A stretch of 64,000 nucleotides of DNA from Acidobacteriaceae bacterium KBS 146 (GTDB taxonomy: Bacteria; Acidobacteriota; Terriglobia; Terriglobales; Acidobacteriaceae): positions 3,224,001 to 3,288,000 of the forward strand of contig JHVA01000001.1 of assembly GCA_000688615.1 (NCBI GenBank). Direction: 5' to 3'. A program made the translations under genes and the position numbers. Below, one piece after another: positions 30,004 through 32,866 of the stretch; the stretch's first letter is position 1; each line of letters starts with the position of its first letter. Under the pieces are notes generated by a model that saw nothing but the letters and a program-made list of their open reading frames with translations, did not search any database and was not told the origin of the DNA.

Positions 30004-30118
30004 AAAGCCTCCTCAGAAGCGACAGGGAAAAGCGAACAAGGATAAAGTTGTAACGGCGTAGTTGTACTGCAAGCGCACTGTCATCACAATCACTGTCGTC
30101 ACAATAAAGGATTCTTTC

Positions 30119-30619
30119 ATGGCTTCCTCCGCTGATCTGGCCCGGGTAATCCACCAGGAGAACGAGCTCCGGCTCCCACGTTTTGATTTTGAAGATGCGT
30201 GGCGTCTGGGGACGCTGCTTCGCGACCTTGCACTGGCCCGCAAGCATGCGCTGGTGATCGACATCCGGCGCTTCGGGCAGCCGGTGCAGCCGCTCTTTTA
30301 CGTTGCGCTCGGTGGCACCACGCCCGACAACTCCCGCTGGGTGCAACGCAAATCCAACGTCGTGGCGCGGTTTCATCGCAGCTCGTACCAGGTAGGGCTT
30401 TACCTGGCGCAGAGCAACATCTCCTTCAAGGAGAAGTACGCCCTGGACGAGGCTGATTACGCCACGCACGGCGGAAGCTTTCCGCTGCATGTAACCGGTA
30501 CGGGGGTGATTGGCGCGGTGACGGTCTCGGGGCTTCCGCAGCGTGAGGACCACAATCTTGTGGTCGAGGCGCTGGCCCGTTTTCTTGAGCGCGATCCGGA
30601 GTCTTTGCGCCTTCCGTAA
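30119..30619 (+). CDS. UPF0303 / HbpS-like heme-degrading-domain protein
   Basis: 166 residues from the ATG at 30119 with AAAGGA upstream; an in-frame start at 30062 adds 19 residues lacking similarity. Motifs of the UPF0303 group: NELRLPRFDFEDAWRLGTLL, VIDIRRFGQPVQPLFYVALGGTTPDN, WVQRKSNVVARFHRSSY, and GGSFPLHVTGTGVIGAVTVSGLPQREDH. The fold (GlcG/HbpS) is linked to heme or corrinoid binding in some members; no function is proven for this group. Stands alone on the plus strand beside a decayed transporter gene. Confidence 0.85.
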   Translation: MASSADLARVIHQENELRLPRFDFEDAWRLGTLLRDLALARKHALVIDIRRFGQPVQPLFYVALGGTTPDNSRWVQRKSNVVARFHRSSYQVGLYLAQSNISFKEKYALDEADYATHGGSFPLHVTGTGVIGAVTVSGLPQREDHNLVVEALARFLERDPESLRLP

Positions 30620-30649
30620 AGAAGACACGCCGGATGCGGTGACTCTGTG

Positions 30650-31035
30650 TGTTCAACGCGTGCGGCTTGTTGATCTTTTCGAGAGATTGTCCTTCGGCGG
30701 AGACTCCGCCAATCAGGGTGCCGATTGCATAAAAGACACTGATCGCCATCGCGAACCTCGAGAGGAAAGATCTCGCAGACGGTGAGGTAGGCTGCGCTTG
30801 CGGCTGAGGAAGCGATAAAGAAGATTGCGGTCCAGTACCGAGTCTGGGTCACAGCCGAGAGTACCTCCGTGGTGAAGAGCCATCCCGTAGTGGCAAGCAG
30901 AACTCCCCTGAGGGCGTAGGTGAGGGAGATCATCTTCTTGCGTCCAACCGTGTCAAAGAGGGGGCCGATCAGCAGCGGGCCGAGGACCTTGCCCAGCGCA
31001 AAGGGAAAGATAGCTGATTGTGCGTCCGGTATTTT
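30650..31035 (-). pseudogene. Decayed MFS transporter fragment
   Basis: Reading minus from 31035 gives PDAQSAIFPFALGKVLGPLL, then IGPLFDTVGRKK (an MFS motif A), helices LRGVLLATTGWLFTTEV and TAIFFIASSAASAAYLTV, and CEIFPLEVR. A net two-base loss at about 30749 then shifts frame; the next frame reads MAISVFYAIGTLIGGVSA, and this joins directly to EGQSLEKINKP, which looks like the far C-terminus, so an internal deletion is also likely. An in-frame stop at 31038-31036 marks the truncated 5' side. It was probably a sugar- or metabolite-proton symporter. Confidence 0.75.
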
Positions 31036-31181: not shown

Positions 31182-31219
31182 GGCCGCGACCCTTTGCAGG
31201 GTGCCGCGGCCTTTTGTTT
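31182..31219 (+). terminator. Orphan plus-strand intrinsic terminator
   Basis: GGCCGCG-ACCCT, loop TTGC, AGGGT-GC-CGCGGCC with a 2-base bulge, then TTTTGTTT. It reads on the plus strand, but the nearest plus-strand gene ends 560 bases upstream at 30619. It also overlaps the stop of the minus-strand AhpD-like gene, where it has no T run. Confidence 0.65.
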
Positions 31220-31740
31220 CAGCGGGTGGCTGCAGCGTGGTCTGCCTGCCACTTCTTGGCTTCGGCCGACTTCAACCACTGGCCCGCAATCTGGCGTGTG
31301 GGAACATTCAGCCGGTTCCAGAGGTTGATGACGGCGACGTTCAGGGTTAGGGCGGCAAGCGCTTTCTCGTCATAATGCTGCGCCGCTTCAAACCAGATGT
31401 CGTCCGGAACTGGATCCGGGCGATCCGCAAGCCGCGTGGCTGCTTCCGCAAAGGCAAAAGCGGCGCGTTCTGCTGCGGTGAAGTAAGGGGCATCGCGCCA
31501 CGCGGCGAGCGCCACCATGCGCTCTTCCGTCTCGCCGATCTGACGCAGGGTACGGGCGTGCATGTCGACGCAGACGCTGCATCCGTTGATCTGGCTGACG
31601 CGCAGATAGATCAGGTTCAGGGTCAGAGCCGGGACGCCGTTGTCCTGTTTGGCGGCGGCTCCGAGGCTCATGAGGGCCTGCATGGCTTCAGGCAGAAGAA
31701 GTGCGGGGTTTGCGAGTCTGGGTTCCATTCTTAGTTCCAC
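31219..31740 (-). CDS. Carboxymuconolactone decarboxylase / AhpD-like protein
   Basis: 173 residues from the GTG at 31740, chosen for AAGGAGA 8 bases upstream; an ATG four codons later is possible. The AhpD-like redox motif CSVCVDMH (Cys-x-x-Cys then His) lies near residues 53-60 in LRVSQINGCSVCVDMHA. The helix-rich remainder (LTLNVAVINLWNRLNVPTRQ) fits the family. Likely an alkylhydroperoxidase-type peroxidase. Such genes are the typical targets and neighbours of ECF41 sigma factors; here it is divergent from one, with a matching promoter (31847-31873). Confidence 0.93.
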   Translation of the reverse strand: MELRMEPRLANPALLLPEAMQALMSLGAAAKQDNGVPALTLNLIYLRVSQINGCSVCVDMHARTLRQIGETEERMVALAAWRDAPYFTAAERAAFAFAEAATRLADRPDPVPDDIWFEAAQHYDEKALAALTLNVAVINLWNRLNVPTRQIAGQWLKSAEAKKWQADHAAATR

Positions 31741-31811
31741 GGATCGGTTCTCCTTCGAGGTGCGGTTTTGCCGGGCTCAGGGCCTGGCGTCGACGGAATC
31801 TGCCGCCGTAC

Positions 31812-31838
31812 TGTCACATTCGACGGAATCAGATCGTC
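31812..31838 (+). promoter_or_regulatory. ECF41-type promoter of the sigma factor gene
   Basis: TGTCACA (31812-31818), 16 bases, CGTC (31835-31838): an exact match to the consensus recalled for ECF41 sigma factors. It reads toward the sigma gene starting at 31955, implying positive autoregulation. Confidence 0.8.
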
Positions 31839-31846
31839 ATCACCCT

Positions 31847-31873
31847 GACGAAGCGAATCGCAAAGATGTGACA
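31847..31873 (-). promoter_or_regulatory. ECF41-type promoter of the AhpD-like gene
   Basis: On the minus strand TGTCACA (31873-31867), 16 bases, CGTC (31850-31847), again an exact match. It reads toward the AhpD-like gene starting at 31740. The two promoters point toward each other with 8 bases between their -10 boxes, so each lies in the other gene's leader. Confidence 0.8.
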
Positions 31874-31954
31874 GCGAGGAAGCGGCAGCGGCAGAAAAAA
31901 TCAGAATGGGCAGATACTGAATCGCGACCGGTGATTTTGCAGAGGGAGTTGAAC

Positions 31955-32866
31955 GTGCAGGAACAGGATTGGCTGGCAGAGCGGTTTGAACAAAACAGAG
32001 GGCATCTGCGTGGTGTAGCGTACCGCATGCTTGGTTCGCTGAACGAGGCTGACGACGCGATTCAGGAGGCCTGGCTGCGGCTGAGCCGCTCTGGTGCGGA
32101 TGACATCGAGAATCTTGCCGGTTGGCTGACGACGGTGGTCAGCAGGGTGTGCCTGGATATGTTGCGGTCCCGGAAGGCGCGGCGCGAGGAATCCATTGAG
32201 GCCCAGCAAGTCGAAAAGAAGTCGCCTGCGGCGGGCAGTTCAGACCCGGAGAGTGAGGCCTTGCTTGCCGATTCCGTAGGAGTGGCGCTGCTGGTGATTC
32301 TGGATCGGCTGGCCCCGGCGGAGCGGCTGGCATTTGTCCTGCATGACCTGTTTGCGGTGTCATTTGAGGAGATCGGTGGAATTCTTGGAAGGTCGGCCAT
32401 GGCAGCACGGCAGCTTGCCAGCCGGGCGCGGCGGCGAGTGCAGGGCGCGCCTGCCGTGACCGACATGGACCGCAGAAGACAGAGCAAGCTGGTCGACCGC
32501 CTTATGACAGCACTGAGGGCCGGAGATGTGCCGGGCATGGTTGCGGTGCTCGATCCTGACTTCGTCTTGCACGTGGACGAAGCGTCGGTGCAGCCCGACG
32601 GGCTGCGGGAGATTCGTGGCGCAGAGGTTTGGGCAAGACAGGCTGTGGTCTTCGCCAAAGGAGCGCACTTTGTGGAACCGGTACTTGTCGACGGGGCTCC
32701 GGGCGTTCTGCTCGCCCCGCACGGCCGCCTGATGCGGGTGCTGCGCTTCACTTTTGCCGGTGACAGGATCACGGGAGGAGAGGTGATCGGCGACAAGGAG
32801 CATCTGGAGCAACTGGACCTGAGCGTGATTGAGACGGATGCAGCCGCAAACATGGCAGGCGAGTAA
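31955..32866 (+). CDS. ECF RNA polymerase sigma factor with C-terminal SnoaL-like domain (SigJ/ECF41 type)
   Basis: 303 residues from the GTG at 31955 with AGGGAG 6 bases upstream; upstream in-frame sequence contains the promoter and is not coding. Region 2: LRGVAYRMLGSLNEADDAIQ, then EAWLRLSR and VCLDMLRSRKARREE. Region 4: LAPAERLAFVLHDLFAVSFE, then EIGGILGRSAMAARQLASRA. Residues about 180-295 form a SnoaL-like domain that in this group controls activity in place of a separate anti-sigma factor. The WLPEP linker usual in ECF41 is not visible, so it may be a neighbouring subgroup. The promoter and the divergent AhpD-like gene match ECF41 behaviour. Confidence 0.92.
   Translation: MQEQDWLAERFEQNRGHLRGVAYRMLGSLNEADDAIQEAWLRLSRSGADDIENLAGWLTTVVSRVCLDMLRSRKARREESIEAQQVEKKSPAAGSSDPESEALLADSVGVALLVILDRLAPAERLAFVLHDLFAVSFEEIGGILGRSAMAARQLASRARRRVQGAPAVTDMDRRRQSKLVDRLMTALRAGDVPGMVAVLDPDFVLHVDEASVQPDGLREIRGAEVWARQAVVFAKGAHFVEPVLVDGAPGVLLAPHGRLMRVLRFTFAGDRITGGEVIGDKEHLEQLDLSVIETDAAANMAGE

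Follow-up and report, generated by a model that had tools for sequence, protein, structure and literature searches.

The promoter pair and its flanking genes

The locus described here raises the question of whether two promoters that face each other between a sigma factor gene and its neighbor are separate units that happen to overlap or a single element read in both directions. The window (the whole 64-kb stretch of DNA analyzed) contains two matches to TGTCACA-N16-CGTC, against 0.13 expected from shuffles, and both belong to this pair (Table 1). A sequence-only reading had reported exact copies on both strands with -10 boxes 8 bp apart; motif coordinates confirm this, with 31839-31846 separating the facing boxes and the whole element spanning 62 bp. 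The ECF41 consensus given in that reading agrees with the published TGTCACA-N16-CGTC (PMC3426412). Its assignment of the + promoter to the ECF sigma gene and of the - promoter to the CMD/AhpD gene fits the flanking genes, and its placing of each promoter within the leader of the other gene is supported.

The motif by itself is not unusual in this genome, where eight sites compare with roughly seven estimated by chance (11-base pattern, three spacings, 5 Mb) and one site for a reversed-pattern control. What exceeds chance is the occurrence of two sites as a pair rather than of the motif as such. A genome-wide regulon was considered and rejected, as the six further exact single motifs in the genome are a chance number.

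Table 1. Coordinates of the paired promoter element and its flanking features within the window
Feature	Position	Strand	Basis
-35 TGTCACA, sigma gene promoter	31812..31818	+	exact match; consensus in PMC3426412
-10 CGTC, sigma gene promoter	31835..31838	+	exact match, spacer 16
-35 TGTCACA, CMD/AhpD promoter	31867..31873	-	exact match
-10 CGTC, CMD/AhpD promoter (GACG on +)	31847..31850	-	exact match, spacer 16
Dyad core CGTCA-N6-TGACG, common to both promoters; predicted joint melted region	31835..31850		gap-8 conservation; melting inferred
Predicted start, sigma gene	31847	+	G, 9th base past CGTC; extrapolated from S. meliloti
Predicted start, CMD/AhpD gene	31838	-	G on - strand; 9-nt rule from S. 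meliloti
AGGGAG, Shine-Dalgarno-like, sigma gene	31943..31948	+	sequence
ECF sigma gene, SigJ-like, 303 aa, sigma r2 + sigma r4 + SnoaL_2-like tail, GTG start	31955..32866	+	Pfam, NCBIfam, PDB 5xe7
AAGGAG Shine-Dalgarno, CMD/AhpD gene	31750..31755	-	sequence
CMD/AhpD-family gene, CxxC, 173 aa, GTG start; predicted target	31219..31740	-	PF02627 E 1.7e-20, TIGR00778

The CMD/AhpD product carries the PF02627 domain and the CxxC motif of its family (here CSVC). The sigma factor matches the Pfam models Sigma70_r2 (5e-14) and r4_2 (8e-10), while its SnoaL_2 match is weak (1e-4, 23.2 bits, under the cut-off of 27) and its match to the SigJ subfamily model NF007214 (1e-69, 235 bits) also falls under the cut-off, 271. 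Its best solved relative is Mycobacterium tuberculosis SigJ (PDB 5xe7; E 3e-43, residues 9-228). Elsewhere in the window, an HbpS-like haem-degrading-domain gene lies at 30119-30619 (+), with a short imperfect direct repeat, GTCATCACAATCACTGTCGTCACAATAA, upstream of it at about 30080-30108. A remnant resembling a major-facilitator transporter, recognized by eye in two frames at about 30620-31030 (-) (FDTVGRKKMISLTYALRG... then AMAISVFYAIGTLIGG), is probably a decayed gene.

Conservation of the 8-bp gap

Facing pairs were sought across 85,000 species genomes with gaps of 0-30 bp allowed, and at least 119 are present. These listed pairs are a non-random sample and their total is a lower bound; among the matches listed, the gap is exactly 8 in 112 of 119 (94%), 9 in four, 11 in two and 12 in one, and both spacers are 16 bp in 111. 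The listed pairs span Actinomycetota, Alphaproteobacteria, Acidobacteriota, Chloroflexota, a Deltaproteobacterium and others. A homolog of the window's SnoaL-type sigma factor is encoded on one arm of at least 114 of the 119 listed pairs; the CMD gene alone is recognized in four, and neither gene in one. Among 396 genomes of the organism's own phylum, four, including a member of its genus, have the pair, all with gap 8. A search of viral contigs found none.

A protein-based sample, in which loci are picked by the sigma protein only and not by geometry, gives a similar picture. It covers 150 genomes of the organism's own family, 60 of the Actinomycete class and 142 of the Alphaproteobacterial class. 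Both promoters (at most one mismatch each) occur at 16 loci, and the gap is 8 in 11 of them, for which P is about 1e-23 under uniform placement over the 281 offsets examined; the other five have gaps of 20, -56, -66, -66 and -71. (The total set holds 20 gap-8 loci, but several come from genomes picked for having the pair and one is the window itself; the count of 11 excludes all of these.) One of the five, L285, has a degenerate gap-9 pair instead. It and three other members of the sigma clade described below (L271, L282 and L291) carry degenerate facing pairs at gap 9, possibly a sub-lineage with one extra base.

Two other origins of the gap were examined and rejected. Against a generic property of ECF promoters stands GGAAC-N16-CGTC, whose facing pairs in 297 genomes have gaps scattered from 0 to 27 with no preferred value and none at 8. 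An extended single-promoter motif is rejected since unidirectional promoters lack GACG at +8.

A search of 395 genomes with the -35 box only returns mostly background and repeats, although some matches spaced by 48 bp carry CGTC/GACG. Several actinobacterial genomes in that search (e.g. G432, G452 and G472) contain a conserved 57-59-bp inverted TGTCACA...TGTGACA without CGTC boxes (TGTCACAGGCCAACCGGTCGGGAACACCGCCCGGCAGTCGAGCTGTGTGAGGTGTGACA).

The gap is kept whether the target gene encodes a CMD, NmrA/epimerase, PNPOx or glyoxalase protein. Its conservation across phyla is the strongest evidence that the pair functions as one element, and comparison gives good support to the promoter identity and geometry of the pair.

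Anatomy of the gap-8 elements

The consensus of 68 dereplicated gap-8 elements, in which box letters are set by the search and the rest are measured, is TGTCACA-t-N14-t-CGTCA-N6-TGACG-ga-N13-a-TGTGACA. In these elements CGTC is followed by A in 76% of cases, mirrored by T in 79%. Identity outside the boxes is just 40%, and the leaders on the CMD side range from 29 to 102 nt among gap-8 loci; the gap is therefore not simply unmutated sequence.

These observations bear on two alternatives. The inverted repeat could be mainly the operator of a dimeric regulator, which CGTCA-N6-TGACG resembles, rather than a sigma-dependent promoter pair. The strong dyad symmetry of the core agrees with such a role, as does the base past CGTC, A in 76% of cores versus T in 53% of single promoters. 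Yet each arm agrees with the promoter at all 11 positions and has the 16-bp spacer, a SnoaL-type sigma gene flanks nearly all listed pairs, and experiments in two other organisms have confirmed that the motif acts as a promoter (PMC3426412); we find an operator very improbable as the main function. Alternatively, two sigma/polymerase molecules might bind jointly (e.g. through SnoaL-domain dimers) with the gap setting their phase, for which the rigid spacing of the -35 boxes, 55 bp centre to centre, could be cited. But 55 bp is about 5.2 helical turns, which is out of phase, the overlapping -10 and start regions are too small for two holoenzymes, and ECF sigma factors generally require core RNA polymerase for DNA binding. 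Joint binding thus appears extremely improbable.

The sigma gene's first in-frame start codon (the codon assigned as its start) lies at offset 29, 34 or 36 past CGTC in 55 of the 68 elements, in or just past the opposing -35 box, and its Shine-Dalgarno sequence is usually inside the spacer of the target promoter. The window is looser than its relatives: its predicted leaders measure 108 nt for the sigma gene and 98 nt for the CMD gene, and tight packing of leader signals does not explain its gap. A GTG at 31868-31870 (+), inside the opposing -35 box (TGTGACA), is in frame with the sigma gene and would give it an open N-terminal extension of 29 residues. In many relatives the sigma start is at or beside the position of this in-box GTG.

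A sigma factor clade without the ECF41 signature motifs

The sequence-only reading had called the promoters ECF41, and the system agrees with that group in part. The sigma factor has an ECF core with a SnoaL-type C-terminal extension of about 100 residues, TGTCACA-N16-CGTC precedes both its gene and the target gene, and the adjacent gene belongs to the CMD/oxidoreductase/epimerase group, being a CMD gene with CxxC. The two signature motifs of canonical ECF41 are missing: there is no WLPEP in the sigma2-sigma4 linker, and GDKEHL stands near the C-terminus where NPDKL is expected. According to work cited in PMC7730460, contact between WLPEP and NPDKL keeps canonical ECF41 proteins compact and inactive. 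The window's sigma factor may belong to another SnoaL group of the revised classification (ECF56, ECF205, ECF294 or ECF295).

The absence extends to the gap-8 relatives. Both motifs are lacking in all 116 sigma factors at gap-8 pairs, while WLPEP is present in 22 of 32 "single" loci and 71 of 100 "none" loci. In a tree of 211 sigma proteins (FastTree, SH-like support), one branch with support 99 sets apart a group of 111 proteins that includes every one of the 79 gap-8 members and 32 others; WLPEP occurs in 1 of these 111, and 89 of the 90 WLPEP proteins fall on the other side. No gap-8 pair was found outside this clade in the 211-protein tree, and some members within it have gap 9 or no detectable pair. 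At three loci with WLPEP-bearing sigma factors (L238, L239 and L216), the divergent promoters stand back to back with gaps of -56 to -66 and one mismatch each, which suggests another divergent arrangement for canonical ECF41 loci.

Confinement of the gap-8 architecture to one clade means that shared descent contributes to it. It also lends some weight to the view that these are two ordinary divergent promoters, overlapping by chance, whose gap has been inherited without joint function, as does the fact that divergent ECF41 loci with both motifs are already known (PMC3426412, Table 4). Drift, however, would yield many gaps rather than 94% at exactly 8 among the matches listed, and the gap persists through drift of the spacers to 40% identity, exchange of the target gene and changes in the CMD-side leader. 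We regard inheritance without joint function as unlikely.

Predicted start sites and a model for the element

A start mapped in Sinorhizobium meliloti lies 9 nt beyond the end of the motif (PMC3616915), and the SMb20029 promoter as printed ends in a G that is the 9th base past CGTC (PMC6180224); by our reading of the table, this last printed base is the start. Mapped starts in two organisms are G residues (PMC3426412). At position 9 of single promoters, G (53%) and A (29%) predominate, a moderate +1 preference. Extrapolation of this rule, whose mapped starts all come from unidirectional canonical ECF41 promoters, gives the start positions in Table 1, because with a gap of 8 the 9th base coincides with the G that opens the opposing GACG. 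They are 9 bp apart, in keeping with the earlier suggestion that the starts nearly touch. Each predicted start would be base-paired to the final position of the opposing -10 box; with this gap, the +1 G of a promoter lies against the C, and its -1 T against the A, of the opposing -10. Gaps of 5 and 7 are absent among the pairs found, though a gap of 5 would also place G at +1; with a moderate +1 preference, start-site needs alone do not explain the missing gaps of 5 or 7. Why the gap is exactly 8 is only partly explained, and the simplest addition is descent from one ancestral element with purifying selection.

The 62-bp element is probably a single bidirectional promoter with dyad symmetry that serves the neighboring sigma factor, is entered either way and couples autoregulation to the target. 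The genome comparisons directly show the elements, the 8-bp gap and their association with one sigma clade and with genes of the target type. Holoenzyme containing this sigma factor, which presumably recognizes the pair, would dock in either orientation on one core (CGTCA-N6-TGACG between two TGTCACA boxes). One orientation would lead to transcription of the sigma gene, giving positive autoregulation, and the opposite one to transcription of the CMD/AhpD gene as target. Since the predicted start base of each transcript closes the other's -10 box, transcription either way would open the same ~13 bp and, by steric logic, could not proceed in both directions at once. The proportion of sigma factor to enzyme would then be fixed by the DNA, and firing of the target would limit self-amplification of the sigma factor.

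Competition between the promoters is sterically likely, with a precedent in the bidirectional promoters of E. coli, which do not compete at basal activity but do when activity is high (PMC12825309). The balance between sigma factor and target that the sequence-only reading had envisaged is therefore not automatic. More tentatively, and with considerable doubt, the symmetric promoter might serve as the control in a SnoaL-sigma clade that lacks inhibitory motifs: target firing would block sigma firing, feedback would be capped, and the sigma-to-enzyme ratio would be set by a 62-bp element conserved across phyla.

Comparison with known systems

Most of what is known of bidirectional promoters in bacteria concerns the accidental symmetry of sigma70 -10 boxes. 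In this case a whole alternative-sigma promoter is apparently mirrored about a centre fixed at 8 bp; the arrangement occurs in several phyla, almost always beside a SnoaL-type sigma gene. The fixed spacing, competition through common melting, and restraint of a sigma factor without the known inhibitory contact become directly testable questions. The pair also provides a simple sequence signature by which other loci of this kind can be located, and a promoter part ready for use in two directions.

The closest known loci are the <ECF< >COE> loci of ECF41. Wecke et al. 2012 (PMC3426412) counts 55 divergent sigma/target loci (15%); 36 have the motif ahead of the sigma gene and 41 ahead of the target, "often both". 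They share with the window the -35 and -10 boxes and spacer, the SnoaL-tailed ECF sigma factor and the CMD/oxidoreductase/epimerase gene, and differ in that canonical ECF41 proteins have WLPEP and NPDKL. In the accessible text of that paper, nothing is said of how the two promoters are placed with respect to one another, and no overlap, dyad or fixed gap appears. Divergent ECF41 loci with both motifs are already known; the conserved facing 8-bp spacing appears to be new relative to the open-access literature covered. M. tuberculosis SigJ (5xe7) has the linker motif (TWLPEP in the alignment) that the window's sigma factor lacks. The S. meliloti RpoE9 promoter of SMb20029 has the same exact TGTCACA-N16-CGTC with a start mapped 9 nt downstream but, unlike the window, is unidirectional, serves a target-sigma operon and has no opposing promoter (PMC3616915, PMC6180224).

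The bidirectional promoters of E. coli and Salmonella described by the Grainger group (PMC10268837, PMC12825309) resemble the window in having pseudo-symmetric DNA used by polymerase in two orientations, and in the reciprocal overlap of -10 and start (PMC10268837), which the gap-8 geometry shares if starts fall where predicted. Their divergent starts are 7-25 bp apart, against a predicted 9 bp in the window. The geometry differs: theirs arises from the symmetry of one sigma70 -10 box, with starts usually 18 bp apart (PMC10268837, PMC12825309), whereas in the window two full -35/-10 promoters of an alternative sigma factor are opposed, with a conserved gap of 8 bp between them, and join a sigma gene to its predicted target.
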